The notes below the pieces were generated by a model. That model was not told where the DNA came from and ran no database searches. It worked only from the letters and a program-made list of their open reading frames with translations. 64,000 nucleotides of DNA from Rhizobiales bacterium IMCC20636 (GTDB lineage: Bacteria > Pseudomonadota > Alphaproteobacteria > Rhizobiales > GCA-2746425), in NCBI GenBank assembly GCA_016865015.1, contig CP018226.1:2325001-2389000 (forward strand). Reading direction: 5' to 3'. The position numbers and the translations under genes were made by a program. This document shows positions 47,954 to 62,483 of the stretch, piece after piece; position 1 is the stretch's first letter; every line of letters starts with the position of its first letter.

Positions 47954-49030
47954 ATGACACGGGATTATTCAAAATTCCTGCGACCTCCAGCAAAGGCTGG
48001 AGAGAGCACACGCACGCCCACCATTCTCGAACAGCTTGGCTGGCGGCCCTTCTTCGCACAACAAATCAGCACGGAAGAGATGGAACAGACGCCGCCTGTG
48101 CGCATCGTTGAGGTCCACCGCAACGGTTTCAATGTGCTGGGCAACGGGATTGATACATTCATTCCGCCAATCCTTGATGCAACCGTCGGGGATTGGCTTT
48201 TGCTGGACCGAGAGGCACCCGGTGACAGCCGGGTCCTGGAGCGCAAAAGCGTGATCAAGCGCCGGGCTCCGGGCAGCGACCGGACCATTCAGTTGATCGC
48301 AGCCAATATTGATACGGCCTTCATCGTCTCATCCTGCAATCAGGATTTCAATGTTGCACGGCTTGAGCGCTACATCGCAGTGGCATTCGAGGCGGAGGTG
48401 TCTCCTGTCATCGTCCTGACCAAGAGCGATCTCTGCGAGACACCTGAGCAGTTTGTGGATGCGGCCAGAGGGATTTCCGATCTGGTGCCGGTTGTGGTTC
48501 TGGATGCGCGGGGGGATGAGCCGCAGCAACGATTGGCCGAATGGTGCAAGCCAGGGCAGACGGTCGCGTTTTTGGGGTCATCCGGTGTGGGCAAATCAAC
48601 CCTCACCAATGCCTTGTCCGGAAATCTCTCCATCGAGACGCAGGCCATTCGTGAGGATGATGCGAAGGGCCGCCACACCACCACAAGCCGCAAGCTGCAT
48701 GTTTTGCCAGGCCGATGCGCGGTGCTGGACACGCCGGGCATGCGGGAATTGCAGCTGACAGACGTTGAGACCGGGATCGCGAACCTGTTTTCCGACCTTC
48801 ACGAGCTTTCAACCCAATGCCGGTTCAATGATTGTCGGCATGAGAGTGAACCGGGATGCGCGGTGCTGCAGGCTGTCGAAGCCGGCGAAATTGAAAATCT
48901 GCGGCTCCGGCGCTGGCGTAAGCTGTTGGCGGAAGACCGTTTCAACACCTCCAGTCTGGAGCAAAGAAAAGCCAAGGACAAAGCCCTTGGCAAGCTGATC
49001 CGTGAGGTGAAGAAGCAAGGCCAGAGATAA
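47954..49030 (+). CDS. rsgA: Small ribosomal subunit biogenesis GTPase RsgA
   Basis: 358 residues. RsgA is a circularly permuted GTPase that assists late maturation of the 30S subunit. In order: an OB-fold, then the G4 motif LTKSDLC, P-loop GSSGVGKSTLTN, RHTTTSRKL, DTPGMREL, and a C-terminal zinc knuckle CRFNDCRHESEPGC. The GTP-binding order G4-G1-G3 confirms the circular permutation. A strong terminator follows after 11 bases. Confidence 0.95.
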   Translation: MTRDYSKFLRPPAKAGESTRTPTILEQLGWRPFFAQQISTEEMEQTPPVRIVEVHRNGFNVLGNGIDTFIPPILDATVGDWLLLDREAPGDSRVLERKSVIKRRAPGSDRTIQLIAANIDTAFIVSSCNQDFNVARLERYIAVAFEAEVSPVIVLTKSDLCETPEQFVDAARGISDLVPVVVLDARGDEPQQRLAEWCKPGQTVAFLGSSGVGKSTLTNALSGNLSIETQAIREDDAKGRHTTTSRKLHVLPGRCAVLDTPGMRELQLTDVETGIANLFSDLHELSTQCRFNDCRHESEPGCAVLQAVEAGEIENLRLRRWRKLLAEDRFNTSSLEQRKAKDKALGKLIREVKKQGQR

Positions 49031-49041
49031 TCAACTTGCAA

Positions 49042-49076
49042 GAAGAGAGTGCCAGCAACGGCACTCTCTTCTTTTT
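49042..49076 (+). terminator. Rho-independent terminator after rsgA
   Basis: GAAGAGAGTGCC and GGCACTCTCTTC form a 12-base-pair perfect stem with a 6-base loop, followed by TTTTT. Confidence 0.93.
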
Positions 49077-49099
49077 CAGCGGCGTGGTTTCCGCCGCGT

Positions 49100-49680
49100 G
49101 GATTCTCGGAACAAGTCGGAGAACGACGACAAGAGCGTTGTGACTTGGCTGGTTGCGGGTCTCGGTCTGAATTCACCCTCTGCGTCGTTCTCGGATTTAT
49201 TCCGAGAACCCAGGGGCCAAACGTGGTCAGGAGTTGTTCCTGTTTATACGAAAATGGCTATGACTGTGGATCGCGTTGCTTGGGATAGTGCGCGCTGATC
49301 CAATAGCTTTGGGTGCTGGGCCGTTGCTTGGGTCCTCGGAACAAGTCCCAGAACGGCGGCAGGAGCGTTGTGACTTGGCTGGTTGCAGGTCCAGGTCTGA
49401 ATTCACCCTCTGCGTCGTTCTCGGATTTATTCCGAGAACCCAAGGGCCAAACGTGGTCAGGAGTTGTTCCTGTTCATGCGAAAATGGCTCTGGCTATGAC
49501 TGTGAATCGCGTTGCTTGGGATAGTGCGCGCTGATCCAATAGCTTTGGGTGCTGGACCGTTGTCTGGGTCCTCGGAACAAGTCCGAGAACGACGGCATGA
49601 GCGTTGTGACATTGCTGGTTGCAGGTCTAGTTCTGAATTCACCCTCCCCGTCGTTCTCGGACTTGTTCCGAGGACCCACG
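49100..49680. repeat. Tandem array of 230-bp units built on long inverted repeats
   Basis: Two full units (49100-49329 and 49330-49565, the second 6 bases longer by an inserted CTCTGG) and a third partial unit (49566-49680). Each unit starts with an arm like TCCTCGGAACAAGTCCGAGA and has the matching arm CGTTCTCGGACTTGTTCCGA about 85 bases on, so each can fold into a long hairpin. A variable ~117-base spacer joins full units. Pairwise identity between copies is very high by eye. The core resembles intergenic palindromic elements widespread in alphaproteobacteria. Any reading frames across it are artefacts of the repeat. No further gene lies between rsgA and the EamA gene. Confidence 0.85.
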
Positions 49681-49714
49681 GGCATCAAGCGATTCCGTGT
49701 AAACAGATAGAACC

Positions 49715-50578
49715 CTACGCACGTACAGATTTCGGGCGCAGGGCGTATTGGGCCAGGAATACGCTGGCGAGGGCGATGATGGCGCCGAGTAATTGCAGGC
49801 TGCCGAGCGTTTCGTTGAGTATCAGCCAGCCCAGTATGGATGCGCTTAACGGGCTGAGAAACCCGAGCACGGACACCGATGATGGCTGCAATCTGGCAAT
49901 GCCGCGGAACCAGATCATATAGGTGAGACCGGCACCGATCAGGCTGAGATAGATTAGTCCCAAAATGTTGATGCTGCTCAGGGTTGTCCAGTCCGTGGAA
50001 GCGAGTGGGAGGAATGGCAGCAGCAATATGCCGCCTGCTGTGAGTTGCCATGCGGTGAATGTAAGTGCCGATACGGGTGGTTGCCATTTTCGACTGAGGA
50101 CGGTTCCCATCGCCATGGAGGCTGCACCCAGCAGACCTGCGGTGACACCCAAACCATCCAGACTGGCTTTGGGTGTCAGAAGAAGCAATGCGATGCCACC
50201 TACCCCGGCCAGAACAGCGATCAATGCCACAGGCCTTACCGGATGCCCCAGAAAGGCCCGCGCCGCGAAGATGACGATCAGTGGCTGCAAGGCACCTAGA
50301 ATGGCCGCAACGCCACCGGGCAGTCGATAAGCGGAGAAAAACAGGCATCCCCAAAAGATCGAGAAGTTGAGCGCGCCGAGGACAAACATTCTGGGGATCC
50401 AGATTCCCGACGGAAGCTGTCGCACCCATACCAGCATGAGCAGCCCGGCAGGCAATGCGCGCAGGACGGCAATCGACACAGGGTCCATATTCGGCAGCAT
50501 TTGGGTCGTGACAATGTAACTGCTGCCCCAGATGATGGGCGCAAGTGATGTCAGCAACAGATCGGACAGGCGGTTCAT
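49715..50578 (-). CDS. EamA/DMT family transporter
   Basis: 287 residues with about ten hydrophobic helices in two EamA repeats (SLAPIIWGSSYIVTTQMLP, and LTFTAWQLTAGGILLLPFLP followed by GFLSPLSASILGWLILNETL). Drug/metabolite exporters of this family move amino acids, metabolites or drugs. Divergent from a marR gene with two palindromes between, so expression is probably controlled by that regulator. Substrate unknown. Confidence 0.9.
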   Translation of the reverse strand: MNRLSDLLLTSLAPIIWGSSYIVTTQMLPNMDPVSIAVLRALPAGLLMLVWVRQLPSGIWIPRMFVLGALNFSIFWGCLFFSAYRLPGGVAAILGALQPLIVIFAARAFLGHPVRPVALIAVLAGVGGIALLLLTPKASLDGLGVTAGLLGAASMAMGTVLSRKWQPPVSALTFTAWQLTAGGILLLPFLPLASTDWTTLSSINILGLIYLSLIGAGLTYMIWFRGIARLQPSSVSVLGFLSPLSASILGWLILNETLGSLQLLGAIIALASVFLAQYALRPKSVRA

Positions 50579-50595
50579 GATGGAATTCCGTAAAA

Positions 50596-50613
50596 TATCT
50601 TGATGTCAAGATA
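50596..50613. promoter_or_regulatory. MarR-type operator 1
   Basis: TATCTTGATGTCAAGATA, a perfect 18-base palindrome apart from the central TG, located 17 bases before the EamA start. Together with the site at 50623 it is the likely binding site of the divergent MarR regulator. Confidence 0.75.
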
Positions 50614-50622
50614 GATGAATTA

Positions 50623-50638
50623 ATCTTGACGTCAAGAT
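50623..50638. promoter_or_regulatory. MarR-type operator 2
   Basis: ATCTTGACGTCAAGAT, a perfect 16-base palindrome sharing its half-site with operator 1; centres are 26 bases apart. It lies 22 bases before the marR start and fits autorepression. Confidence 0.75.
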
Positions 50639-50660
50639 AAAAGCAGTCTTCCATTGGCGT

Positions 50661-51155
50661 ATGGATGATATTGATACAATCAAAGCCCAATGGGCGCAGC
50701 AGAGACCCGATCTGGACACCGATCCAATGGCATTGATCGGCCAGTTGATGCGTGTCAGCCAGCATCTTTCCCGGCAAATGGCTGACACTTTTGCACAATT
50801 CGATCTGACCAGTGCCAGCTTCGACGTGTTGGCAACCCTGCTTCGCTCAGGCCCGCCCCACGCACTGTCTCCAAATCAGTTGCTCTCCACCATGATGATC
50901 ACATCCGGCACCATGACTAACCGGATTGATCAGCTGGAAAAACAGCAATTGGTGAAGCGGATCAGGAGTACAGAAGACCGGCGCAGCGTTCAGATTGCCC
51001 TGACGGACAAGGGTCGCCGCCTGATTGACGAGGCCGTCACAGCCCATGTTGCCACACAAACGCGTCTGGTCTCTGCCCTGCCCGCGCAAGACCGTGAGGC
51101 TTTGGATCAGTTGCTACGGAAATATCTGGTCAATATGGCCGAGAGCTCAGAGTGA
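50661..51155 (+). CDS. MarR family transcriptional regulator
   Basis: 164 residues, winged helix. The recognition helix region SPNQLLSTMMITSGTMTNRIDQLEKQQLVKR and the wing with STEDRRSVQIALTDKG are typical. It probably represses itself and the divergent EamA transporter through the twin palindromes. The inducing ligand is unknown. Converges with the ureohydrolase gene 28 bases downstream. Confidence 0.92.
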   Translation: MDDIDTIKAQWAQQRPDLDTDPMALIGQLMRVSQHLSRQMADTFAQFDLTSASFDVLATLLRSGPPHALSPNQLLSTMMITSGTMTNRIDQLEKQQLVKRIRSTEDRRSVQIALTDKGRRLIDEAVTAHVATQTRLVSALPAQDREALDQLLRKYLVNMAESSE

Positions 51156-51183
51156 AGCAGTGCATCGCCCTTCCCTGCTGAAC

Positions 51184-52161
51184 TCAGTCTGCTGATGCTT
51201 TTGGCTGAAGTGTCGAGGCAATTACACACAGCATTTCGAAAATCAGCGACGCGCCCAGATAGGCGGTGCCGCCTGATGCATCAAATGGTGGGGAGACTTC
51301 GACCAGATCGGCGCCGACGATATTGACGCCTTTCAGATGGCGTATGACCTCGATGGCCTGAAAGCTGTTGGGGCCACCAATCTCGGGTGTGCCGGTGCCG
51401 GGCGCAAAGGCCGGGTCAACGAAATCGATATCATAGGACACATAGGTGTTGCCGGAGCCTGCGATCTCACGTGCTTCCAGCATCACATCGGCGACACCGC
51501 GGGTGTGAAATTCTTCAATCGGAATGACGCGAATGCCAACACTGTTGGCAAAATCGCGGTCTTCATTATCATATGTGGTGCCCCGGATGCCGATCATGCA
51601 AACCCGCTTGGGGTCGAGCAATCCTTCTTCGACGGCCCGACGGAAGGGTGTTCCGTGGGTGTATTTCGAGCCGTTGAAATAGTCCTTGAACAAATCTGTA
51701 TGGCTGTCGAAATGGATCATCCCGACCGGCTGATTTGCAGCCACCGCCCTGAGAATCGGCAAGGTCGACAGATGGTCACCACCAGCAGTCATGGGAAAAA
51801 TGCCTGCCTTCAAGACGGTTTCGTAAAAAGCTGTGATCCGGCTCATACTGTCCATCAGATCTGCCGGATTGGGCGGTACATCTCCCAGATCGGCACAATT
51901 GAGTTGTTCAAATGGACGGATGCCGGTTGCGCCGTTTTGCGCCCGGATCATGGTGGACATGTCGCGAATTTGCCGTGGACCGTGGCGCGGCCCGGCCCTG
52001 TTGGTTGTGCCACTGTCCCAGGGCACGCCGATCAAACCGGTATCCACGTCTGACAGGCGTGTATCTTCAAGGGTCAGGTGCGGCAAGCGCATGAAGGTTG
52101 GAACACCAGCGTAACGCGGCAGATCAAAGCCGGAGGGTGGTTGAAAAAACGGATCGCTCAT
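51184..52161 (-). CDS. Agmatinase/ureohydrolase family protein (first copy)
   Basis: 325 residues of the arginase-agmatinase fold. All six metal ligands are seen: GGDH (His130), FDSHTD (Asp152, His154, Asp156) and SYDIDFVDP (Asp244, Asp246), followed by APGTGTPE. Such enzymes split a guanidino group to urea, on agmatine, guanidinobutyrate, guanidinopropionate or guanidine itself. It follows an ABC importer with a 33-base gap on the same strand, so it probably acts on the imported compound. The TetR gene divergent from this operon suggests induction by substrate. Exact substrate unknown; no nickel chaperone genes are in view. Confidence 0.87.
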   Translation of the reverse strand: MSDPFFQPPSGFDLPRYAGVPTFMRLPHLTLEDTRLSDVDTGLIGVPWDSGTTNRAGPRHGPRQIRDMSTMIRAQNGATGIRPFEQLNCADLGDVPPNPADLMDSMSRITAFYETVLKAGIFPMTAGGDHLSTLPILRAVAANQPVGMIHFDSHTDLFKDYFNGSKYTHGTPFRRAVEEGLLDPKRVCMIGIRGTTYDNEDRDFANSVGIRVIPIEEFHTRGVADVMLEAREIAGSGNTYVSYDIDFVDPAFAPGTGTPEIGGPNSFQAIEVIRHLKGVNIVGADLVEVSPPFDASGGTAYLGASLIFEMLCVIASTLQPKASAD

Positions 52162-52194
52162 ATGGTCCTCTTCGAAGTGTCGTACCGGCAGATA

Positions 52195-53022
52195 TCAGCG
52201 CTCGTCATTCGCGCCCTGTTCCTGCATCATGCGCATGATTTCCTTTTCCAGGACACCATAGCCGTCCAGTCCGATAACCTCTTCCTTGCTCTTGTAGCGT
52301 TTGCCCTGTTTGAATTCAGGAACAATGATCTTGTGGACGCGGCCGGGATGGCTGGACATGAACACAATCTTGTCTCCCAGATAGATGGCCTCTTCGATGT
52401 CATGGGTGACCATCACCATGGTCGTGTTTGCGGTCTCGGCAATGCCGACCAGCAGTTCCTGCATATGCCAGCGCGTTTCCGCATCCAGTGCGCCAAATGG
52501 CTCATCCATCAGCAGCAATGCGGGATCGTTTGCAAGCGTGCGGGCGATGGCGACTCTCTGTTTCATGCCACCTGATAATTGTGACGGATAGGCATCTTCG
52601 AACCCACCCAGATTGACAAGATCGATGAATTTCTGCGTGCGTGCGCGGCGTTCCGGTTTGGGGACGCCATTGATACGCATGCCGTATTCAACGTTGCCCC
52701 GCACGGTCAGCCAATCGAACGAGGTGTAGGCCTGAAACACCATGCCACGTTCCTTGTCCGGGCCGGTGATGACGCTGCCATCAAGGCGCAACTCGCCTGT
52801 TGTCGGCCTTTCAAGGCCTGCCATCATCCGCAGAATTGTCGATTTGCCACATCCGGAAGATCCCAGGATCGTGCAAATCTCGTTTTCATCCACGATAAAG
52901 GATGCATCGGCGATGGCCTGAACCTCACGCCCCTTTCCCAAAGAGAAGCGTTTGGTAACGCTGTCCACAACCAGTTTGGCAGACGCGGCAGCCACGGTAT
53001 TTGTGTGTTGAATGTCGGACAA
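52195..53022 (-). CDS. NitT/TauT-type ABC transporter ATP-binding protein
   Basis: 275 residues starting at a TTG one base past the permease stop; GGAG lies 8 bases before it. A longer frame would overlap the permease and lacks homology. Walker A GSSGCGKST, Q-loop VFQAYTSFDW, signature LSGGMKQR, Walker B LLLMDEPFGALD. Subfamily of SsuB/TauB/NrtD ATPases that energise importers for small nitrogen or sulfur compounds. Confidence 0.92.
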   Translation of the reverse strand: MSDIQHTNTVAAASAKLVVDSVTKRFSLGKGREVQAIADASFIVDENEICTILGSSGCGKSTILRMMAGLERPTTGELRLDGSVITGPDKERGMVFQAYTSFDWLTVRGNVEYGMRINGVPKPERRARTQKFIDLVNLGGFEDAYPSQLSGGMKQRVAIARTLANDPALLLMDEPFGALDAETRWHMQELLVGIAETANTTMVMVTHDIEEAIYLGDKIVFMSSHPGRVHKIIVPEFKQGKRYKSKEEVIGLDGYGVLEKEIMRMMQEQGANDER

Positions 53023-53023
53023 A

Positions 53024-53845
53024 TCAGTTTCTCCGGTCTTGGATATAGGGGAAGAACCAGCGATGTGCCCGGCGGAACAGGATATCAAAACACAGTCCCA
53101 GAACGCCAATGACTATAATACCGGCCATGATTTCATCAGTATGCAGGAACCGCCGTGCTCGCATCATCATCGCTCCGACACCTGTGGTCGAGGCGACAAT
53201 TTCGGCGATCACGAGGTAGGTCCAGGTGACGGCCAGCATCTGGCGCATCGCCGTCAGCACATGTGGCAAAACCGCTGGTAAAATGATTGTCCGAACGATG
53301 GTCCAGCGCTTGCCACCCAAGGTCAGCCCGGTTTCAACCAGTTCTGTGCGCACTTCGCGGGTGTGGTCCATGATGATTGTAATCAGGAAGAAAACCACCC
53401 CAATGACCAGAAGCACAAGTTTTGGCGTCTCGCCGGTTCCAAACCACATCAGCAGAATTGGAATGAAGGATGGCGCGGGCAGATAGCGCCAGGCTGAAAC
53501 AAACGGGTTGAATACGGCTTCTATGGCGGGAAAGGCACCCATCGCGACTCCTAGCGGAATGGCCACCGCACAGGCAATGCTGAAACTGAACACGACGCGC
53601 CAAACGCTGATCAAGATATCTGACACCAACCCGCGGTTGACCAGCATGTCGACCAATGTCGTGAGAACGGTATGAGGCGCTGGCACCAACAGATCATTGA
53701 CCAATCCTGCCAGTGAAACACCTTCCCACACGGCAAAGAACAGCGCCCATATGAAAATTGCCGAGAGAATGGATTGCTTTGAAGACACCGGCTTGCGCAA
53801 CTGAAACCAGGGCGTCGGCGCGGCTCTATTCGATGAATTGGTCAT
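53024..53845 (-). CDS. NitT/TauT-type ABC transporter permease
   Basis: 273 residues, about six membrane helices, with the ABC permease EAA loop seen as ETGLTLGGKRWTIVRTIILPAVLPHVLTAMRQ. Matches SsuC/TauC/NrtB-type permeases. The stop codon lies one base from the start of the ATPase gene; the binding protein is 72 bases upstream. Part of a four-gene operon. Confidence 0.92.
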   Translation of the reverse strand: MTNSSNRAAPTPWFQLRKPVSSKQSILSAIFIWALFFAVWEGVSLAGLVNDLLVPAPHTVLTTLVDMLVNRGLVSDILISVWRVVFSFSIACAVAIPLGVAMGAFPAIEAVFNPFVSAWRYLPAPSFIPILLMWFGTGETPKLVLLVIGVVFFLITIIMDHTREVRTELVETGLTLGGKRWTIVRTIILPAVLPHVLTAMRQMLAVTWTYLVIAEIVASTTGVGAMMMRARRFLHTDEIMAGIIVIGVLGLCFDILFRRAHRWFFPYIQDRRN

Positions 53846-53917
53846 GATCGTCGCCTGTTATCAGGTTGCCGAAAATCGGGAGGCCGTCAATAAACGGCCT
53901 CTCGACATTATCGTTGT

Positions 53918-54979
53918 CTATTTGCGTGCTTCTAAGGATTGACGATAGCCCTGGCTGATCAGATCGGCCATCAGAGAGCAATCTACACCAGCTTCGGGAT
54001 CGTGGACTTCAGTCATCAGACCAAACCGCACCCAATATTCATTGATCGTTTTAATGACCGTGGTGATGGAACCGTTTTCAAGGCCGAAAGGTGGTTCACC
54101 GTCCAGAACGCCACAGACTTTGGCGGATTCATCAAAGTCGTACATGTAAATGCCACCATCGAGGAATTTCCCGTTGGTTCCAATGACGGACTCAATGTCG
54201 GCCAATGGCCATTGCAGGAAATCAGACATCAGCTGATTGCCCTCTTCGGTGTTGTCATGCCACCAGCCAACAGCTTCAAAGCGCGCCTTCAGCATATCAA
54301 GAGCAGCCTCACGGTGATTGGCTATGAAATCGCCATTCATGTAAATCACATCCGTGAAAATTCCGGTTTTCAGCATCCAGTCTTCGCTGGTATCTGCCGC
54401 TGAACTGGATCCGGGCAGGTTTTCCATGACTTTGGAAATCCAGGGCTCATACAGATATGCAGCTGCAAGATCGCCTGAAAGCATGGGGCCGACGGCCTCA
54501 TCGGCCAAAAGGTTGACCCATTCGACATCATCCAGCGGAATGTTTGCACCATCCATCCAGACACCCATCAACAGCTGACCGATATAGGCCTGCGGCGCGC
54601 CGATACGCTTTCCCTTGATGTTTGAGACGTCAATGCCCGGGGCAAGAATGACGTGGTCGACACCGTAAGACGGGTTGGCGAATGCGACAGTTACAACCCC
54701 GGTGCCGCGATCAATTGCCAAAGGCGTGTAATCGCCGGTGCACTCATAAATATCGATCTGACCTGCGGCCAAAGCAGCCTGCCCGCCCAGTGGGTCATCA
54801 AAGATGACCGTGTTTATCTCGTAGCCTTCGGCAAGGCCCTTTTGTTTGGCGATTTCCAGCATGGCGTAACCTGGCCATGAGACACAAAGCCCTACGTTGA
54901 TCTGTTCTGCCGATGCTGCGCTCGCCGAAAACGTCAATGCTACGGCGCCCGCAGCCAATGCGGTTCCCATCTTTCTCAT
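53918..54979 (-). CDS. NitT/TauT-type ABC transporter substrate-binding protein
   Basis: 353 residues with a signal peptide (MRKMGTALAAGAVALTFSASAASA). NMT1/SsuA-like two-lobe binding fold: INVGLCVSWPGYAMLEIAKQKGL, then FDDPLGGQAALAAGQIDIYECTGDYTPLAIDRG and YLYEPWISKVMENLPG. Acidic residues (Asp, Glu) and Tyr/Trp around the predicted cleft would fit a positively charged nitrogen ligand, as expected for guanidino compounds, but this is inference. First gene of the operon; GGAG precedes the ATG. Confidence 0.9.
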   Translation of the reverse strand: MRKMGTALAAGAVALTFSASAASAEQINVGLCVSWPGYAMLEIAKQKGLAEGYEINTVIFDDPLGGQAALAAGQIDIYECTGDYTPLAIDRGTGVVTVAFANPSYGVDHVILAPGIDVSNIKGKRIGAPQAYIGQLLMGVWMDGANIPLDDVEWVNLLADEAVGPMLSGDLAAAYLYEPWISKVMENLPGSSSAADTSEDWMLKTGIFTDVIYMNGDFIANHREAALDMLKARFEAVGWWHDNTEEGNQLMSDFLQWPLADIESVIGTNGKFLDGGIYMYDFDESAKVCGVLDGEPPFGLENGSITTVIKTINEYWVRFGLMTEVHDPEAGVDCSLMADLISQGYRQSLEARK

Positions 54980-55010
54980 TACGTCGTCTCCATCTGAATT
55001 TATTTTTTAT

Positions 55011-55035
55011 TGACTATTAAAGTTTAGTCACTAAA
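55011..55035. promoter_or_regulatory. Putative TetR operator between the two divergent operons
   Basis: TGACTA and TAGTCA (55011-55016 and 55025-55030) form one dyad, and TTTAGT-C-ACTAAA (55023-55035) is a perfect 13-base palindrome overlapping it. It lies 32 bases before the substrate-binding-protein gene and within the promoter zone of both arms. Binding by the adjacent TetR protein is the likely function. Confidence 0.6.
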
Positions 55036-55122
55036 ATTCTTGTGTGTCTAGACGTTTTTTCAAGCTCTCTCTAGGATTGCACCGAAGCAAAGGTACCGAC
55101 AGCAACGTCTGGGAGTACGCAA

Positions 55123-55788
55123 ATGGCAAAAGTCTGGGAGGACGACATGGCAGTTTTGAGCTTACGGAAACGCCAGAAACTGGACCGCTCCAAACGCATT
55201 CTGGAAGTGGCCAGAACCCGATTCCAGAATGAAGGCTACGGCACCGTCACGATTGAGAGCATCGCCGCAGAGGCGGGCGTGTCTGCAGTCACTGTTTATA
55301 ATTATTATGAAACCAAGGCCAATTTGCTTCTGGCTCTGGTGAAGGAAAGTGACGTTCGGCTGATTGCACAGCTCAACTGTCTGATCGATGAGTTACCGGT
55401 CGATATTCGCGATGCTGTGGCCGATTTTGGGCGAATCATGCGCAGCCACGCAATGACATATCTTGCCAAAAGCACCTGGCGTGAAGTGCTTGCTGCAAGC
55501 ATTCTGGAAGGCGGCAAGCAGTTTGGACACACCTATCGTGATCTGGATCGTGCCCTGATCGAGTTGATGTCGTTCCTGGTGAAAGCCTATCAGCGCCGCG
55601 GCACCCTGTCCCGACAGGTCGATGCCGATACGTTGGCAGACACCTTGTTCGAAATGCAGAACATCCGGTTCTTCCTGTTTATCTCAGACGAAAATCAAAC
55701 TGAAGAAGATGCCAGCGCACATTTTCGACGGGATGTTTTCGTGATCTTTGCCGACAAGCTCAAACCGCATTTGAAAGAAGTAAAATGA
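55123..55788 (+). CDS. TetR family transcriptional regulator
   Basis: 221 residues. N-terminal helix-turn-helix TVTIESIAAEAGVSAVTVYNYYETKANLLLAL, preceded by a basic helix (RSKRILEVARTRF). The C-terminal ligand domain is helical without a recognised subfamily. Two starts are possible: 55123 and 55147, each preceded by a GGGAG-type ribosome site in a local direct repeat; the second gives the more typical N-terminus. The gene is divergent from the ABC operon and overlaps the second ureohydrolase by ATGA, so it probably controls both arms. Confidence 0.9.
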   Translation: MAKVWEDDMAVLSLRKRQKLDRSKRILEVARTRFQNEGYGTVTIESIAAEAGVSAVTVYNYYETKANLLLALVKESDVRLIAQLNCLIDELPVDIRDAVADFGRIMRSHAMTYLAKSTWREVLAASILEGGKQFGHTYRDLDRALIELMSFLVKAYQRRGTLSRQVDADTLADTLFEMQNIRFFLFISDENQTEEDASAHFRRDVFVIFADKLKPHLKEVK

Positions 55789-56759
55789 CCAAAAATCAAT
55801 ATGAGTCAGGCCGACTGGATCTTCCTTTTGTTGGCATTTCAACGTTTGGCAAGAATCCTTACGTTTCGGATTGGGACAACATAGATGCCGATTTTGCCAT
55901 TCTTGGCGCGCCTTATGATTTTGGAACCCAATGGCGGCCGGGTGCGCGCTTTGGCCCGCGCTCGATCCGCGAGGCATCTACCCTGTTTTCCTTTGGACAT
56001 GGTGGCGCTTACGACCATGAGGATGACGTCACCTACCTACCGGCTGGTCAGGTTAAAATTGTCGATATTGGCGATGCCGATATCGTCCACACCGATACGA
56101 TCAAAAGCCATGCAAACATAGAATATGGGGTGCGCAAAATTCTGGAGGCCGGTGCCATCCCGATCACTCTGGGCGGCGATCATTCGATCAATATCCCATG
56201 TGTCAATGCGTTTAGTAATCAGGACCCTGTCCATCTTGTGCAGATCGATGCGCATCTTGACTTTGTTGATGAGCGGCATGGTGTGCGCTTTGGTCACGGA
56301 AATCCGATGCGCCGGGCCGCGGAAAAACCCTATGTGACCGGACTGTCGCAGATTGGGATTCGCAATGTCTCGTCCACTGCCAAGGAAGGCTATGATGACG
56401 CTCGCGCCATGGGGTCGGACATTCTGTCCGTGCGGCAGTTCCGCAAGATGGGCGTTGAACAGGTGCTGGAGCGCATTCCCGACGGGGTGCGCTATTATGT
56501 GAGCATCGATATTGACGGGTTCGACCCTTCGATTGCCGCAGGCACCGGTACGCCCTCGCATGGCGGATTTCTTTATTACGAAATCCTGGAATTCCTGGAC
56601 GGGCTTACAAAGCGTGGCCAGATTGTCGGACTGGATCTGGTCGAGGTCGCACCGGATTACGATCACTCCGGCACCACCGCGATTCTTGCAGCTCAGATTC
56701 TGATGAATACGATTGGCCGGATATCCCACAACCGCCCCTCACCAACCGCTAACGAGTAA
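55785..56759 (+). CDS. Agmatinase/ureohydrolase family protein (second copy)
   Basis: 324 residues, arginase-agmatinase fold, only distantly like the first copy at 51184. Metal ligands complete: GGDH (His133), IDAHLD (Asp155, His157, Asp159) and SIDIDGFDP (Asp242, Asp244), then AAGTGTPSHGG. Differences in the loop after APYDFGTQWRPGARFGPR and the HGGAYDHEDD segment, compared with the first copy, suggest a different substrate or a partner subunit. Overlaps tetR by 4 bases and is 3 bases from the following SDR. Confidence 0.87.
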   Translation: MTKNQYESGRLDLPFVGISTFGKNPYVSDWDNIDADFAILGAPYDFGTQWRPGARFGPRSIREASTLFSFGHGGAYDHEDDVTYLPAGQVKIVDIGDADIVHTDTIKSHANIEYGVRKILEAGAIPITLGGDHSINIPCVNAFSNQDPVHLVQIDAHLDFVDERHGVRFGHGNPMRRAAEKPYVTGLSQIGIRNVSSTAKEGYDDARAMGSDILSVRQFRKMGVEQVLERIPDGVRYYVSIDIDGFDPSIAAGTGTPSHGGFLYYEILEFLDGLTKRGQIVGLDLVEVAPDYDHSGTTAILAAQILMNTIGRISHNRPSPTANE

Positions 56760-56762
56760 ATC

Positions 56763-57545
56763 ATGGGCAAAGTGACATATGATTTTTCGGGCAAAACTGT
56801 TCTGGTGACCGGCGGCAGCCGTGGCATTGGTTATGGGGTTGCCAGAGGTTTTGGACAGGCTGGCGCCGATTTGGCGATTCTTGCCGACGATGAAGGTGTT
56901 TTCAACGCTGCTGAAACCCTGGCTGCCGAGACCGGACAAGATGTCAAAGGTCTTCGCTGCGACATCACCGATGTGGAACAGATCAAACAGGCTCTCGGTC
57001 AATTGCCCCGGCTTGATGTTCTTATCAATAATGCGGGATTGGAGCGCACGACACCAATCACAGATCCCGACGACGCCGTAGAATCCACTTTTCGACGGAT
57101 CATCGACATCAATGTCATGGGCACATTTCTGATGACGCGGCATGCATTGCGCAAGATGGAGAAGGGCGGCCGCATCATTTTGACCGCCTCCATCTGGGGC
57201 CGGACAGCTGTCGCCGACTATTCAGCCTATTGCGCATCGAAACACGCCAATATCGGTTTCATGCGCTCGATGGCCCATGAATTGGCCCCCTTGGGGATCA
57301 ACGTCAATGCGGTATGCCCCGGCTGGGTCAAAACCGAAGCCGCAATGCTGACCCTTGCGAAAATGGCTGCAAGTTCAGAGCGTTCAGAAGATGAACTGCT
57401 TGAAGAAATCATTTCAGGTCAGGTCCTGGGCGGATTGCTGGAGCCCGACGATATGGCTTCGATCTATTTGTATCTGGCCTCTGATGGCGCGCGGGACATC
57501 ACCGGACAAGCCTATCATCTGGATCGTGGGGAGGTCATGGCATGA
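56763..57545 (+). CDS. Short-chain dehydrogenase/reductase (divergon, first)
   Basis: 260 residues, classical SDR: GGSRGIG, NNAG, catalytic Ser in TASIWG and Tyr/Lys in SAYCASK. An Asp after the second strand (ILADDEG) suggests NAD preference. Translationally coupled with the next SDR (ATGA overlap at 57542). In this operon it may oxidise an alcohol or reduce a ketone made from the guanidino compound after removal of urea. Substrate unknown. Confidence 0.9.
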   Translation: MGKVTYDFSGKTVLVTGGSRGIGYGVARGFGQAGADLAILADDEGVFNAAETLAAETGQDVKGLRCDITDVEQIKQALGQLPRLDVLINNAGLERTTPITDPDDAVESTFRRIIDINVMGTFLMTRHALRKMEKGGRIILTASIWGRTAVADYSAYCASKHANIGFMRSMAHELAPLGINVNAVCPGWVKTEAAMLTLAKMAASSERSEDELLEEIISGQVLGGLLEPDDMASIYLYLASDGARDITGQAYHLDRGEVMA

Positions 57546-58282
57546 CCAAAGGCTATGAAGGCATGAACGTGTTGGTAACTGGTGCCTATCGCGGTATCGG
57601 AGCGGCCTGTGCAAAATTGTTTGGCGCAGCGGGCGCTCACGTTTTATGCGCGGATCTGAAAAATCCTGACGAGACGGTCGAGTCCATTCGCACCGCAAAC
57701 GGCACGGCCGAAGGCATTGTCTGCGATGTGACGGACGAAGCTTCAATTCTGGACCTGTTCCAACACGTCAATGGGCGTTTTGCGCCACTCAATGCTGTGG
57801 TCAACTGCGCTGGTATCATCCATGAGCGCGGCCTGCTGGAAACCACAACTGCCGAATTTGATCAGGTGATGGCAGTGAATTTGCGTGGCTCATTTTTGAT
57901 TGGCCGTGAAGCTATCCGTGCCATGCAAGGCAATCAGGGGCGCGTCATCATGATCGCCTCCGATTTGTCTTATTACGGGCGTGAATCCTACTCGCCCTAT
58001 GTGGCGTCGAAACACGGGGTCCTGGGGCTCGTTCGCTGTTGGGCAAAGGAATTTGCACCCAATATCCTGGTCAATGCACTGTGTCCCGGTCCGATCGATA
58101 CGGCGATGCTGGCGGCTGAAAACATGAGCCCGGAGTGGCGTGCCAAGGAGCTTGAAATTCCGTTGGCCAGATTCGGTCAACCAGAAGAAATTGCACAGAT
58201 GGCACTGTTTCTTGCAGGGCCAAATGCAGCATATATCACCGGCCAGGGGATCGGTGTAAACGGCGGGAGTATAATGCCATGA
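57542..58282 (+). CDS. Short-chain dehydrogenase/reductase (divergon, second)
   Basis: 246 residues, classical SDR: TGAYRGIG, NCAG, IASDLSYYGRESYSPYVASKHG with Ser, Tyr and Lys. Shares the fold with the preceding SDR but the sequences are clearly different, so the two probably catalyse successive steps or form a heteromer. Overlaps its neighbours on both sides by ATGA, which shows tight coupling. Confidence 0.9.
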   Translation: MTKGYEGMNVLVTGAYRGIGAACAKLFGAAGAHVLCADLKNPDETVESIRTANGTAEGIVCDVTDEASILDLFQHVNGRFAPLNAVVNCAGIIHERGLLETTTAEFDQVMAVNLRGSFLIGREAIRAMQGNQGRVIMIASDLSYYGRESYSPYVASKHGVLGLVRCWAKEFAPNILVNALCPGPIDTAMLAAENMSPEWRAKELEIPLARFGQPEEIAQMALFLAGPNAAYITGQGIGVNGGSIMP

Positions 58283-59190
58283 TCAAAAACCCGGTGCCTT
58301 GGCCCAATGGCGCAAAATGCGCGGCCTGCGTAACCTTCGATATGGATGCAGACAGTCTGGTTCATATCAACCACCCAAAGCAGAGCCACCGCAAGGCGGC
58401 GACGACGTCGATGCTGCAATATGGCCCGGAAATCGCCATTCCGCGCATTGTGGAGACCTATCGTCGCCTTGGCATCAAACAGACCTTCTTTATTCCTGCA
58501 TGGTGTGTTGAGCGCTATCCGAAGGCAATTGAAACGATTTTGGAAGGTGGCCATGAAATTGGCCATCATGGCTACATTCACGAGCATCCGAATGAACTGG
58601 AGCCGGAAGAAGAAGCCCATTGGCTAGACGTCGGGATCGATATTCTGAAGCGCGCAACCGGCAACAGTCCGCGTGGCTGGCGCGCCCCGTTGTACAACAT
58701 GTCCGACGTTTCATGTGACCTGCTGACCGAGCGCGGGTTCAGCTATGATGCATCTCTCATGGGCGATGATCAACCCTACATGCTGGACACTGCCAAAGGC
58801 AGCCTGGTTGAATTGCCAACGCATTGGGGCCTTGATGACTGGCCGCAATTTGTTCAATCCGAGGACCTTGGCTATTTCGGCAATATCATGGCCCCCACCA
58901 TGGGGTTTGAGCCGTATATTCAGGAATTCAATACACTCAAGAAATATGGCGGGCTGTGGGTGGCTGTGGTCCACCCGTTCGCAACAGGCCGATTGGCCCG
59001 TTGGGAGGTTGTGGCCAACTTCCTGGAACAGGCAATTGCCTCCGAGGATGTCTGGTTTGCACCCATGGAAGAAATCGCGGCTCATGTCCGCAAAGTGACG
59101 GAGTCCGGCGAATACACACCGCGCCGTGTTGACATGCCAGCTTATTCGACGCCGGTTTATGACGAGGCGCTGGCAAAGTATAAAAAATAG
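58279..59190 (+). CDS. Polysaccharide-deacetylase family (CE4) hydrolase
   Basis: 303 residues of the NodB/CE4 fold: TFDMDAD (general base and metal Asp), GHHGYIHEHP with metal-binding His residues, and RGWRAPLYNMS. No signal peptide is seen, so the protein is cytoplasmic. This clade (PuuE-like allantoinases and HpPgdA) acts on small amide or cyclic nitrogen compounds rather than on cell wall sugars, which fits the surrounding ureohydrolases. Last gene of the right arm; overlap with the SDR is 4 bases. Confidence 0.85.
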   Translation: MIKNPVPWPNGAKCAACVTFDMDADSLVHINHPKQSHRKAATTSMLQYGPEIAIPRIVETYRRLGIKQTFFIPAWCVERYPKAIETILEGGHEIGHHGYIHEHPNELEPEEEAHWLDVGIDILKRATGNSPRGWRAPLYNMSDVSCDLLTERGFSYDASLMGDDQPYMLDTAKGSLVELPTHWGLDDWPQFVQSEDLGYFGNIMAPTMGFEPYIQEFNTLKKYGGLWVAVVHPFATGRLARWEVVANFLEQAIASEDVWFAPMEEIAAHVRKVTESGEYTPRRVDMPAYSTPVYDEALAKYKK

Positions 59191-59658
59191 GCCGATGCAA
59201 ACCTGCATGTGCCGCTGCCTCAGGCCGTGGTGACGTCTATGCGCCTTGCGGCACTACTATCGAAGGACGAGCTTTCCTCTTCACTCGGCTTGAGCATGAG
59301 CGCGTGGTAAGATTTAAATGATCAGAGTCACCAGATTTGGCCATGTCAGCAAGACAGCGAGCGCCAGAAACTGGATGGCAATAAGGGGTGGATACCATAA
59401 AACAGCCAATCAAGGTGCCGCCATTGGCCCACCAAAGCCTGAGAAGCCAAGTGACCGACGGTGCTGTGTGCACAGGGTTTTCTGGGTGTCCACTTGCGTG
59501 CGAGATCATTTGAGAAGCGATTGACAACCTGACCACCGTGTACGCGCATCAGGAGACTTGTTAGCAAAACAGAACCATCATTTGCGCCCATGCAATCGAA
59601 CATCACATTGGCCATCATCCTGATCCGCTAAGGTTCAGCTTCAAGGGGAAGAAGTTTC
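59191..59658. other. Intergenic region with a transporter remnant
   Basis: 468 bases after the deacetylase gene without an intact gene. The part at 59314-59409, minus strand, encodes a lone membrane helix that ends like a transporter, described separately. The remainder shows only short frames with stops in all frames. Confidence 0.5.
59314..59409 (-). pseudogene. C-terminal remnant of a membrane transporter (DctM-like)
   Basis: A short minus-strand frame reads LAVLWYPPLIAIQFLALAVL (first 20 residues) and then TWPNLVTLII, followed by a stop. Such an end resembles the last helix of TRAP transporter large subunits (DctM). A stop codon lies directly before it and neighbouring frames carry scraps of similar length, so the gene is decayed. 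Identification rests on this one helix and could be wrong. Confidence 0.35.
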
Positions 59659-60468
59659 ATGAAACCTGATCAATTTGACGTCTCGAACACAGTTGTTCTG
59701 GTGTCTGGTGGGAGCCGAGGAATCGGTCTGGCAGCCGCAGTTGAATTTGTCCGCCAGGGTGCACAAGTGATTATCACCGGGCGCAATGAAGAGAGTTTGC
59801 GCCAAGCTTGTGCGACCTCCATTGAGGGCGAGCATGCGATGGATTTTGTAACCTGTGACGTTGCAGACACCGATGCCATCACTGCGTGCGTGGACAGTGT
59901 GACAGAAAAATATGGTGGCATCGACACATTGATCAATTGCGCCGGAATCAACACACGCAAACCGGCTGTTGACTTCGCGCCCGAAGAGTATGACCGCATC
60001 ATGGATATCAATCTGCGCGGAGCCTTTTTCATGGCGCAGGCCGTTGGTAAGAAGATGATCGTCGCGGGAAAAGGCAATCAGATCAACATCGACAGCCTTT
60101 CAACCTTGACCTCTCTTACCGGGGTTTCGCCCTACAGCATGTCGAAATCCGGTCTCAGCAACATGACCCGTGCCCTGGCCTTGGAATGGGGCAAGTATGG
60201 CGTTCGCGTGAATGGACTGGCACCTGGATTCATCCTCACTGACCTGACAAAAAAGATGTGGTCCGACCCGAATATGCAAGCCTGGAATAAAACCGTGACG
60301 CCACTTCAGCGTCTCGGTGAAGTTGAGGATCTAACGGGCACAATGGTTTTCCTGGCCTCCCCTGCTGCGGCATTTGTGACAGGCCAGATCTTACGCGTCG
60401 ACGGAGGTGCCTCCGCAGGCATCAATTGGCCAATTAATCATGATTTCGAAGTCACATCGAAAGATTAG
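59659..60468 (+). CDS. Short-chain dehydrogenase/reductase (gluconate 5-dehydrogenase-like)
   Basis: 269 residues, classical SDR: SGGSRGIG, NCAG, then the catalytic Ser in NIDSLSTLTS and Tyr/Lys in SPYSMSKSG. VIITGRNEESL after the second strand suggests NADP use. The overall pattern fits the gluconate 5-dehydrogenase/IdnO-like group. AGGGG lies about 10 bases before the ATG. Separated from the divergon by a remnant region, so it may belong to a lost transporter operon. Confidence 0.88.
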   Translation: MKPDQFDVSNTVVLVSGGSRGIGLAAAVEFVRQGAQVIITGRNEESLRQACATSIEGEHAMDFVTCDVADTDAITACVDSVTEKYGGIDTLINCAGINTRKPAVDFAPEEYDRIMDINLRGAFFMAQAVGKKMIVAGKGNQINIDSLSTLTSLTGVSPYSMSKSGLSNMTRALALEWGKYGVRVNGLAPGFILTDLTKKMWSDPNMQAWNKTVTPLQRLGEVEDLTGTMVFLASPAAAFVTGQILRVDGGASAGINWPINHDFEVTSKD

Positions 60469-60770
60469 AGTCTTTCCCGATTATACGGAATCGTTTGATG
60501 CCCTGAAACTGGTCATCCAGCCAGGCAGCCAGCGCAGCGCCCAATAGTGTCGGGTGTGGGCGCACCGGGCAAGCTGGCTAACGCCGCTGTTGGGCTGTTC
60601 CGGGGCGCCGAAGGCTGGATTTGCATGTTCGCTGGACATCGTTACAGCCCACTTGTGGGCATAAACACCTCCCGCAAAGCAAAAAGTGTTACCTATGTGT
60701 CCGGTACGTTCTGTTACCTATGTCTCGGGTCGCTCACACTGGTAAGAGGTATCCTCAGTGTCTGCCGTGG
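60469..60770. other. Intergenic junction with IS-like repeats
   Basis: 302 bases. The first part shows no intact gene; a minus-strand stretch at about 60470-60580 reads HPTLLGAALAAWLDDQF, possibly the C-terminal end of an unidentified gene. The second part contains a 25-base direct repeat described separately. This is probably a junction of two DNA segments of different origin. Confidence 0.4.
60687..60736. repeat. 25-base direct repeat resembling an insertion-sequence end
   Basis: TGTTACCTATGT occurs at 60687-60698 and 60712-60723, 25 bases apart, with similar flanks (GTCCGG versus CTCGGG). Repeats of this form sit at the ends of some insertion sequences in alphaproteobacteria. No transposase gene remains nearby. 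Confidence 0.4.
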
Positions 60771-60983
60771 TTACCGGCTTCTGATCAGGTTCCGCCAGTG
60801 GTCGCCATATGTACCGAGATGCTTGTAGGCGATATATAGTCCCATCCAGATGGAGCAGATCCCTGAAATAGTAGCTCCAAAACCAATATAGCTGAGTTCT
60901 AGAATGATGAATATACCGGTGCCAATTGCCATTGAGATATTGATCAGGTCGCAAAACAAAGCTTCTTTTGGTGAAAGTTCCAT
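60771..60983 (-). CDS. Small membrane protein, 70 residues
   Basis: Starts at 60983 (MELSPKEALFCDLINISMAIG) with GAGAAAGG upstream. Two membrane helices are evident, at about 12-32 and 37-57, then a short basic tail ending RNLIRSR. No family is recognised. Lies on the same strand as the TctA-IclR operon, 46 bases after its last gene, so it could be cotranscribed. Confidence 0.55.
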   Translation of the reverse strand: MELSPKEALFCDLINISMAIGTGIFIILELSYIGFGATISGICSIWMGLYIAYKHLGTYGDHWRNLIRSR

Positions 60984-61029
60984 GTGGTAGCCTTTCTCCA
61001 CAAAATTACGCGGCCATCATTCACTTATT

Positions 61030-61680
61030 TCACGACGATCCGGCTTCCGCGGAAGTGATATCGTGCTCCAGTCGGTAGAGATCCGTCACCACCCGCTCGG
61101 CTGCAATTCCGGTGATAAATCCCTCTACATCGCCTTCCGGCCAGCCGCCCAGTTCGAGGAGCAGCACCGCCTCAGATGGGGCTAGGTCGCCTTGGCGCAG
61201 GCCTCGTTCCCTGGTCTGTTGCGGCGTTTCGGTGGCTATCGCCGCGACACCTGCCAGTGCGCCGCTAGTGTCCATTACCTTGCGCAACAAAGCATCAAGC
61301 TCCGCTCCTTGTCCGATGGCACCCCAAAGTCGCACGGTACCGACCACTCCGCCGCGTCCAGATCCATGGCGATGAGCAATGCTGGCCCCCATGCGCTCAG
61401 TAGCAACAAACGAAGGCAGTACCGATTGGGTCCATTCGGTCGGGTTATTGAGACGATCAAGATAGGCAGTACTGGATAACACGCTAGCATCGTCCACCTC
61501 ATAGAGGGTCAACCACCGCGGCTGCGCTTGGGAGCTGAACAACCTGCGGCCACGCTTGAAGCCAGGTACGCTCATGCGCTCGGGCAGGTGCTCACGGCTG
61601 TGCCAGCGTCTGAATTCATTTTCGGCACCACCAGCAATATCGTTCCAGATGGCCAGCAGTCCCCCGTTTTCATCGCTCAT
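61030..61680 (-). CDS. Dimeric alpha-beta barrel protein (DUF4286/EthD-like)
   Basis: 216 residues from the ATG at 61680, which overlaps the IclR stop (ATGA). The N-terminal half shows LLAIWNDIAGGAENEFRRWHSREHLPERMSVPGFKRGRRL, the signature of DUF4286 or EthD-type small barrels; a second similar barrel follows in the C-terminal half. Such proteins accompany aromatic and carboxylic acid degradation. A longer reading frame to 61839 is rejected because it runs into the IclR coding region. Confidence 0.8.
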   Translation of the reverse strand: MSDENGGLLAIWNDIAGGAENEFRRWHSREHLPERMSVPGFKRGRRLFSSQAQPRWLTLYEVDDASVLSSTAYLDRLNNPTEWTQSVLPSFVATERMGASIAHRHGSGRGGVVGTVRLWGAIGQGAELDALLRKVMDTSGALAGVAAIATETPQQTRERGLRQGDLAPSEAVLLLELGGWPEGDVEGFITGIAAERVVTDLYRLEHDITSAEAGSS

Positions 61681-62483
61681 ACAAAATCCTGCTGCTCGGA
61701 GTCGTTGGTCATGTGTTGACGGATCGGCCACAGGGTTGAAATGCGTGCCGCTGCAGACTTGAGAAGCGGCATCAATTCCTCCATGCGGGCCGGGGTCATC
61801 CGAGCACTTGGACCCACCACAATGATGGCGCCGGCGCAAGTGCGCGAACTGGCTCCCGCGAAAACTGCAGCAGCCACAGAATTGACACCGACAGCGGCCT
61901 CCTCGATCGCCATCGCACAGCCCAGACGGCGCGTGCGTTCAAGCTCCTCTAACAGCTCCTTCATCGTTTTTATCGCGCGGGGGCCGGTCTCGTTGACATT
62001 TGGAAAGCCCTGCTTCAGCACCAGCCGCGCCGCATCGGCGTCATCGAGCGTGGCGAGCCATGCCTTACCTGCCGCAGTAGAGTGAAGCACCGCTTGCCTA
62101 CCGATATTGCCGTCATAGCGTAGCCCATCGCGCGCGCCTTGGGCTTCGGCCACCCAAGTCAGACTATCGCCGTCGATCACCGCCAACCGGGCGAGTTCGC
62201 CAGTTGCCTTGGCGAGCAGCCTCATGTCCGCATAGCAGACGTCACGGATACCGGTAGCGTTAAGGTGGGCGAAGCCGAGTACCGCAAGCTTGAGAGTTGC
62301 GCTGTAGCGTTGGCTTAAGGTGTCTTGTTCGATATAGCCGCGACCGAGCCATACTTGAAGTAGCCGATGGGCGGCCGACTTGGGCATGCTGATTGCTGCC
62401 GCTATTTCACCCAACGCCATCGGCCGTTCGGCTTGCTCAATGAGTTCGAGAATGTCGATCGCGCGCTGGAGTTGAACAGACAT
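61677..62483 (-). CDS. IclR family transcriptional regulator
   Basis: 268 residues. N-terminal winged helix (RAIDILELIEQAERPMALGEIAAAISMPKSAAHRLLQVWLGRGYIEQ) and C-terminal ligand-binding IclR domain (VLHSTAAGKAWLATL, GCAMAIEEAAVGVNSVAAAVF). Starts 16 bases after the TctA gene and overlaps the barrel gene, so the regulator is part of the operon it probably controls. Ligand unknown; base composition is higher in GC than the rest of the window. Confidence 0.92.
   Translation of the reverse strand: MSVQLQRAIDILELIEQAERPMALGEIAAAISMPKSAAHRLLQVWLGRGYIEQDTLSQRYSATLKLAVLGFAHLNATGIRDVCYADMRLLAKATGELARLAVIDGDSLTWVAEAQGARDGLRYDGNIGRQAVLHSTAAGKAWLATLDDADAARLVLKQGFPNVNETGPRAIKTMKELLEELERTRRLGCAMAIEEAAVGVNSVAAAVFAGASSRTCAGAIIVVGPSARMTPARMEELMPLLKSAAARISTLWPIRQHMTNDSEQQDFV

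Follow-up and report, generated by a model that had tools for sequence, protein, structure and literature searches.

A conserved, modular locus of ureohydrolases, short-chain dehydrogenases and a CE4-fold hydrolase in a Rhizobiales genome

What might a bacterium do with two ureohydrolases, two short-chain dehydrogenase/reductases (SDRs), a CE4-fold hydrolase and an importer, all packed into one locus? The question is raised by nine genes at 51184-59190 of a 64,000-nucleotide stretch of Rhizobiales bacterium IMCC20636 (bases 2325001-2389000 of one 4.79 Mb contig; the whole stretch is called the window here). An earlier note, made from the sequence alone, described them as two tightly coupled divergent arms and suggested uptake and degradation of a guanidino or ureido compound. 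Our analysis identifies a real, conserved and modular catabolic locus. Its core is the right arm, i.e. ureohydrolase U2, SDR1, SDR2 and the CE4 protein, and the importer of the left arm is one of several alternatives. At a probability of about 0.4, we propose that the locus encodes a catabolic system induced by its substrate, a guanidino compound, in which oxidation is followed by ring opening and then by urea release. No published description of the gene set was among the matches listed in the open-licence literature. The features are as follows.

51184..52161, minus strand: U1 ureohydrolase, 325 amino acids, guanidinopropionase/guanidinobutyrase-like (PF00491, 301.6 bits)
52195..53022 (inferred start; the open reading frame runs to 53109), minus strand: ATP-binding cassette (ABC) ATPase, TauT-type family (PF00005, 110.5 bits)
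53024..53845, minus strand: ABC permease, TauC/SaoP-like (PF00528, 86.3 bits)
53918..54979, minus strand: substrate-binding protein, NMT1/SsuA family (PF13379, PF09084)
55011..55035, no strand: operator-like site TGACTA-n8-TAGTCA overlapping TTTAGTCACTAAA, a palindrome between the arms
55123..55788, plus strand: TetR-family regulator (PF00440, 44.7 bits)
55785..56759, plus strand: U2 ureohydrolase, 324 amino acids, uncharacterised, strongly conserved subfamily (PF00491, 274 bits)
56763..57545, plus strand: SDR1, by sequence of the type that uses nicotinamide adenine dinucleotide (NAD) (PF13561, PF00106)
57542..58282, plus strand: SDR2, NAD-type by sequence (PF13561, PF00106)
58279..59190, plus strand: CE4/NodB-fold hydrolase, predicted opener of cyclic-amide (imide or lactam) rings (PF01522, 57.1 bits)

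Conservation of the locus and its core

All nine open reading frames, their strands and their families are as the earlier note had them. Pfam and NCBIfam scans place U1, an ABC ATPase, an ABC permease and an NMT1/SsuA-type binding protein in the left arm, and TetR, U2, SDR1, SDR2 and a polysaccharide-deacetylase-domain (CE4/NodB) hydrolase in the right. The coupling is tight, with three 4-base ATGA overlaps (TetR-U2 at 55785-55788, SDR1-SDR2 at 57542-57545 and SDR2-CE4 at 58279-58282) and a gap of 3 bases between U2 and SDR1. The ATPase reading frame as called (52195-53109) overlaps the permease by 86 bases, solely via an upstream TTG; judging from the layout seen in the annotated orthologue of Roseovarius (L039), a start near 53022 is more likely. 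A third SDR, at 59659-60468, was left out of the cluster, being 468 bases from CE4 and having no counterpart after CE4 in the congener copy. Just 3' of this gene, at about 60466-60672, lies sequence that resembles a dispersed repeat, with matches at several places in each or some of three congeners.

The earlier note had advised a search for the exact gene set in other genomes, and the set is indeed conserved. All nine genes occur in identical arrangement in the congener G386 (L165, gene identities 88-96%), in the alphaproteobacterial genomes Pseudohalocynthiibacter RR4-35 (L044), Roseovarius ZX-A-9 (L045) and Roseovarius spongiae (L046), and on a plasmid of Roseovarius THAF9 (L039). With this recurrence, the arrangement is more than chance. 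TetR is 62-88% identical across eight other window-type clusters, and U2 shows 78-83% identity in five carriers that belong to other genera. U1 is divergent in L048 (47%), and tblastn found no U1 within 9 kb in L047 or L049.

The nine-gene set behaves as a mobile accessory locus, since it is patchy among relatives and differently placed in the congener. The binding protein is present in five of the 61 genomes drawn as relatives and is not found in three of four congeners (both at E ≤ 1e-30); among the 61, it reaches at least 70% identity only in its own genome, G386 and the order-mate G412. The G386 cluster is near 4.77 Mb, and relatives of the genes that flank the left end of the window cluster lie near 3.13 Mb.

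Which of these genes belong together can be seen from the neighbourhoods of CE4. We compared 82 CE4 loci: 77 from a genome collection (the distinct loci among the best 80 of 273 confirmed stretches), four plasmid loci and the congener. The loci were picked because they resemble the CE4 protein of the window or its relatives, and are not a random sample. Co-occurrence was counted by tblastn within a 9 kb radius of CE4 for named reference families only, with identity cut-offs of 60% for U2, 44% for U1, 48% for SDR1, 44% for SDR2 and 50% for CE4 over 75% of length. Genes in the fetched loci were called by a custom script, which may have missed or misplaced some of the neighbours.

The complete core of U2, SDR1, SDR2 and CE4 is present in 30/82 loci. 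A further 13 hold U2 and CE4 with neither SDR above its cut-off, and four hold U2, SDR2 and CE4 without SDR1. One of the four is L094, where the SDR2 match is 44% identical and on the opposite strand. In L081, U1, U2 and SDR1 are joined by an SDR2-like gene at 41%. Within 9 kb of CE4, 55 loci have a ureohydrolase; this is U2 in 48 of them and U1 without U2 in the other seven, so either seems able to serve. The oxidising genes can be exchanged while CE4 and a ureohydrolase stay. They are mostly SDR1 and SDR2, and in L057, L064 and L119 they are SDR2 and a xanthine-dehydrogenase-type molybdenum hydroxylase.

In the plasmid collection the spacing of the core is almost constant. CE4 (E ≤ 1e-100) occurs in 12 records, and in all 12 U2 lies 2472-2489 bases upstream on the same strand (2494 in the window). 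U2 (E ≤ 1e-60) occurs in 66 plasmid records in all, and so is much more widespread than the cassette. Of 385 genomes sampled evenly from the class, 37 contain U2 (E ≤ 1e-70) and 16 contain CE4 (E ≤ 1e-60); the window's own genome aside, the best CE4 match is 52% identical. Nine of these genomes hold both genes, on one contig only in the window's genome, most of the genomes being drafts.

The importers beside the core are of many kinds. They comprise NCS1 permeases, BMP-type ABC importers, APC permeases, polar-amino-acid ABC importers and three kinds of TauT-type ABC importer. We therefore regard the locus as a core with exchangeable importers, and not as the single fixed nine-gene pathway of the earlier note. 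That the arms might occur separately, which the note had set against its own reading, is largely what we find. In a CE4 tree of 83 rows, nine rows that form one group (support 89; eight of these, 99) are set apart by the window-type importer. Over the whole tree the nine importer labels need 26 changes, counted with labels that follow our own thresholds and allow a single label even for loci with several importers.

The window's importer belongs to the same broad family as the TauT-type importers of taurine and alkanesulfonates in its ATPase, permease and binding protein. Unlike them, all three proteins fall far below the taurine and sulfonate-family cut-offs. The top NCBIfam model for the ATPase is the taurine ATPase, at 220 against a cut-off of 357, and the permease reaches 136 against 342 with the TauC model. 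For the binding protein the scores are 19.9 against 304.25 (TauA) and 79.6 against 163.5 (SsuA_fam), and we rejected a taurine or aliphatic-sulfonate importer. The binding protein is also far under the cut-off of the NCBIfam urea-uptake model and has no sequence match in PDB at E 0.1.

Several other gene sets were seen around CE4 relatives. A tightly conserved set in Pseudomonas (L096-L101, L103-L107) consists of an APC permease, an SDR, an NAD-dependent epimerase-like gene and a CE4 relative, with no ureohydrolase. In L117 and L120, CE4 relatives (55% and 52%) lie near GTP-cyclohydrolase-N-family and cytidine-deaminase-like genes (the Pfam scan covered the L117 proteins only), company that is reminiscent of the URC uracil pathway. 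A three-subunit molybdenum hydroxylase of the above type and a TauT-type importer accompany CE4 in L057, L064, L119 and L110, the last without U2 or SDRs. Finally, an operon with sugar-kinase-like, ureidoglycolate-lyase-like, BtpA/SgcQ, GntR and amino-acid ABC genes recurs beside two different CE4 modules (L041, L074, L109; partly L053, L056, L071).

Enzymes and a proposed order of steps

What the locus degrades is suggested by U1. Both ureohydrolases pass PF00491 with their six metal ligands (H; DxHxD; DxD) intact, namely H130, D152/H154/D156 and D244/D246 in U1 and H133, D155/H157/D159 and D242/D244 in U2. U1 is 55% identical (172/313 aligned positions) to the 3-guanidinopropionase GpuA of Pseudomonas aeruginosa (3nip) and 49% identical (152/311) to the guanidinobutyrase GbuA (3nio). 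It also has a tyrosine at the position of GpuA Tyr157, a specificity-determining residue. This closeness, together with the intact ligands, makes a guanidino compound the likely theme. The guanidino theme and the release of urea, as in the earlier note, are thus supported in part, and their tie to one fixed set of nine genes is not. We know of no SDR or CE4 gene in the gpu and gbu loci.

U2, unlike GpuA and GbuA, forms a separate and uncharacterised subfamily. It is 35% identical to U1 and about equidistant from all solved ureohydrolases (best PDB match 1wog, 186.5 bits). In plasmid records that carry a gene name it is annotated 'agmatinase'. The agmatinase model TIGR01230 is passed by both U1 (189.7) and U2 (186.3; cut-off 174.3), and PRK02190, another agmatinase model, by neither (275.8 and 199.8; cut-off 302); as a formimidoylglutamase U2 scores 129.3 bits, below the cut-off. 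Human AGMAT, an enzyme annotated as agmatinase with 60.2% identity to GbuA, acts on linear guanidino acids of intermediate length; neither agmatine nor guanidinoacetate is hydrolysed (PMC9772407, excerpt). The wider context of U2 did not settle its substrate, as ten neighbour proteins scanned in class genomes belong to mixed families, with two or three lacking a match. The families include ATP synthase beta, a diaminopropionate ammonia-lyase type, an ectoine-hydrolase type, cytosine deaminase, succinate-CoA ligase, a cysteine-desulfurase-like protein and a TRAP binding protein.

In L135, L137 and L140, U1 and U2 homologues stand in tandem ahead of a LysR gene, and neither an SDR nor CE4 is close by; from these pairs, U1 and U2 may be partners that act together in other settings. 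A Mesorhizobium plasmid (L125) has three ureohydrolase genes (U2, a U1 homologue and a third type), a urea-carboxylase-associated protein and an amino-acid ABC importer.

The motifs of the two SDRs are TGGSRGIG and YCASK in SDR1 and TGAYRGIG and YVASK in SDR2. Each has an aspartate after the second strand, a feature typical of SDRs that use NAD and hence of oxidation, which is the role that both fit.

The CE4 protein carries the NodB-like motifs TFDMDAD, HGYIH, RAPLY and VHPF. Its best sequence matches are 3rxz, which is uncharacterised, HP0310 (3qbu) and the allantoinase PuuE. Foldseek places its structure model, with a mean predicted local distance difference test score (pLDDT) of 83.1, next to this same group (E 3e-25 to 1e-15); the other carbohydrate deacetylases follow from E 2e-9 onwards. 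By sequence and modelled fold, CE4 is closest to the cyclic imidase/allantoinase branch of the CE4 fold, and we predict that it opens rings. It was rejected as PuuE allantoinase itself (TIGR03212, 80.1 bits against a cut-off of 424.6), and it stays below the cut-off of every NCBIfam deacetylase model. Proteins of this kind that are annotated 'polysaccharide deacetylase' probably do not act on polysaccharides.

A parallel is found in the breakdown of nicotinate by Aspergillus nidulans. In this fungus a ring carbinol is converted to a cyclic imide by oxidation with the SDR HxnW, and the imide is then opened by the cyclic imidase HxnM, for which HP0310 is the nearest structural homologue (PMC9304392, excerpt). 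Both systems would thus have an SDR that acts on a ring carbinol, a ring opener related to HP0310 and PuuE, and then a nitrogen-freeing hydrolase (HxnN in the fungus). The differences are that the Hxn pathway is fungal and pyridine-derived and ends in an amidase, not in ureohydrolases, and that the upstream genes are not the same (PMC9304392, excerpt).

These comparisons suggest the following route. The ABC importer would take up a guanidino compound. Inside the cell its reduced form would be a guanidino alcohol or aldehyde; the aldehyde could close onto a guanidine nitrogen to give a cyclic carbinol. The NAD-type SDRs would oxidise this carbinol to a cyclic lactam, an acylguanidine that is chemically imide-like. 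CE4 would open the lactam by hydrolysis to a linear guanidino acid, and U2, here together with the guanidinopropionase-like U1, would cleave the acid to urea and an amino acid. That CE4 makes the ureohydrolase's substrate fits the neighbourhoods, where U2 with CE4 but without SDRs is common and U1 is sometimes present where U2 is missing. We infer this order of steps, the role of each SDR, the regulation and the identity of the substrate, whose chain may have any length from C2 to C4.

A second kind of module is in keeping with this proposal. In these sister modules U2 stands with an aldehyde dehydrogenase (ALDH), a GMC dehydrogenase and an NCS1 permease, and the GMC protein scores above the cut-off for the choline dehydrogenase BetA (774 and 757 bits, cut-off 732.1). 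All five plasmid records with the ALDH also hold U2, and four of the five have no CE4 match. The two genes are adjacent in three records and in the same block in Azoarcus, and Roseateles XES5 also holds both. It is as if ALDH can stand in for an SDR plus CE4. An aldehyde that can be oxidised either by ALDH directly or, after ring closure, by an SDR to a lactam for CE4 would explain these modules, since both ways would end in a guanidino acid for U2.

Two candidate substrates are 2-guanidinoethanol, suggested by the BetA-like GMC of the sister modules, and 3-guanidinopropanal, suggested by U1. The former is mildly disfavoured by the inactivity of the human guanidino acid hydrolase on guanidinoacetate (PMC9772407, excerpt). 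No title on bacterial breakdown of guanidinoethanol, glycocyamidine or lombricine was among the matches listed in the open-licence literature.

A more general version of the proposal is more tentative. A lactam route for guanidino aldehydes may be common to many bacteria, with SDRs acting on the ring-closed carbinol in place of an ALDH on the open aldehyde, a CE4-fold opener and urea release by U2, in which the core is combined with different importers. Part of this doubtful joint reading is that the route would be undescribed and the CE4-fold enzyme not previously linked to guanidines.

Counter-evidence and rival readings

A number of observations weigh against the proposed route. The guanidino substrate is a proposal, and no substrate can be transferred to U2 from ureohydrolases that are all about equally far from it. 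The binding protein does not discriminate between ligands either; with a mean pLDDT of 66.9 its structure model is weak, and taurine, pyrimidine and sulfonate binders alike are among the folds nearest to it (TauA, Thi5, a formylaminopyrimidine binder and SsuA). The substrate of HP0310, which is related to cyclic imidases, is itself unknown (PMC9304392, excerpt), and the route does not explain the need for two SDRs.

The neighbourhoods supply further objections. In 27/82 CE4 loci tblastn finds no U1 or U2 homologue within 9 kb, so CE4 is not tied to guanidines; these include 11 Pseudomonas loci, and two lie beside pyrimidine-type genes. Conversely, none of SDR1, SDR2 and CE4 is near U2 in any of the 35 neighbourhoods that were fetched from the 36 other U2-bearing genomes in the class sample. 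Among the 13 loci with U2 and CE4 but neither SDR above its cut-off, L058 adjoins ALDH and GMC genes and four are close Bradyrhizobium relatives.

The ALDH comparison has its own difficulties. The best NCBIfam model of the sister-module ALDH is phenylacetaldehyde dehydrogenase (585 against 850), followed by betaine-aldehyde dehydrogenase (510 against 668.6), and no model is passed. L065 and L079, which carry the ALDH module beside the whole SDR/CE4 cassette, speak against simple replacement, as does L058, where it is next to CE4. Lastly, urea could leave before oxidation, because the Sinorhizobium ureohydrolase SpeB2 acts on 4-guanidinobutyraldehyde directly as well as on the acid (PMC7268258, excerpt).

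This last point favours the order given in the earlier note, which is the rival that survives best. Here a linear guanidino compound is imported and loses its urea first; the amino alcohol or aldehyde set free in this way is oxidised by the SDRs, and CE4 acts last, on an amide that it hydrolyses. The gene content is compatible with this, and urea release can stand alone, as U2 occurs without SDR or CE4 beside amino-acid ABC importers on Rhizobium and Variovorax plasmids. The arginine transamination network of Sinorhizobium likewise pairs a dehydrogenase for a guanidino aldehyde with a ureohydrolase that is active on acid and aldehyde, although its dehydrogenases are aldehyde dehydrogenases, not an SDR plus CE4 (PMC7268258, excerpt). 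We nevertheless consider this order unlikely. CE4 with U2 but no SDRs (13/82), and CE4 with U1 instead of U2 (7/82), are easier to understand if CE4 feeds the ureohydrolase, and once urea is gone there is no obvious cyclic amide left for a PuuE/HxnM-type enzyme. Neither order is proven, and oxidation, ring opening and then urea removal fits the neighbourhoods better.

Could the substrate instead be an N-heterocycle, aromatic or reduced, e.g. a pyrimidine with a 2-amino or 2-methyl group like that of thiamine, with CE4 opening the oxidised ring and U2 cleaving the amidine that results, in place of a guanidino acid? Sister modules do have importers of nucleobase or BMP type, three loci with U2 and CE4 have a molybdenum hydroxylase, a cytosine-deaminase-family gene adjoins U2 in L145, and CE4 is near GTP-cyclohydrolase-N and deaminase genes in L117. 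Thi5 and the formylaminopyrimidine-binding protein are also among the best folds of the weak binding-protein model. This reading has to accommodate a U1 that is a relative of guanidino-acid hydrolases, a U2 that occurs with amino-acid importers and without any ring opener, and the preference of U2 for the agmatinase model over that of formimidoylglutamase. On balance, we think it quite improbable.

The two ureohydrolases might also form one mixed enzyme that acts on a single unusual guanidine, as in the metformin hydrolase MetCaCb, where two arginase-family genes likewise share a locus (PMC11271267, excerpt). Homologues of U1 and U2 are side by side in L081, L135, L137 and L140, and arginase pairs with all ligands intact have been reported, their cooperation being an open question (PMC11271267, excerpt). 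MetCb-type partners have lost three to five of the six metal ligands (PMC11271267, excerpt), whereas U1 and U2 retain all six, and on this ground membership in a MetCaCb-type heteromeric pair was rejected. U1 and U2 are also found apart, since U2 with CE4 occurs without U1 and U1 occurs without U2, and a mixed enzyme is very unlikely.

Least probable of all is that CE4 is a true deacetylase that takes the N-acetyl group off an acetylated guanidino compound or amino sugar: it has the polysaccharide deacetylase domain and NodB-like motifs, and 3rxz and 3qbu were named putative deacetylases by their depositors, but by fold it is nearest to the allantoinase/HP0310 group, which matches far better than the characterised carbohydrate deacetylases do, the deacetylase models are not passed, and the cassette has no gene for handling acetyl groups.

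Regulation and wider meaning

The divergent intergenic region contains a conserved, locus-specific palindrome between the binding-protein and TetR genes. It is exact in seven of the nine window-type clusters and degenerate in L039 and L049. The exact core occurs once in the window's own genome and once in G386, both times at this locus. With at most one mismatch it occurs at two places in the own genome (one exact, one mismatched) and at one in G386; a reversed control pattern gives 20 and 18 hits, respectively. A sigma70-like match at 55010-55037 lies under the palindrome, one of 11 such matches where 6.3 are expected. The simplest reading of this arrangement is a single-target TetR repressor that would bind the palindrome and keep both arms silent until an effector is present. 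No guanidine riboswitch or other structured RNA was matched by Rfam at E ≤ 1 in 46000-64000 of the window, nor was there a match at gathering score in seven related loci.

If the proposed oxidation, ring opening and urea release is true, it would give a function to a ureohydrolase subfamily that is present in 37 of the 385 sampled genomes of the class and annotated 'agmatinase', and likewise to proteins annotated 'polysaccharide deacetylase'. Marine and soil bacteria would also have a further way of recovering the nitrogen of guanidino compounds. The cassette is compact, its importers are naturally swapped and U1 is present in some modules and absent from others, so the substrate can be tested by comparing modules.

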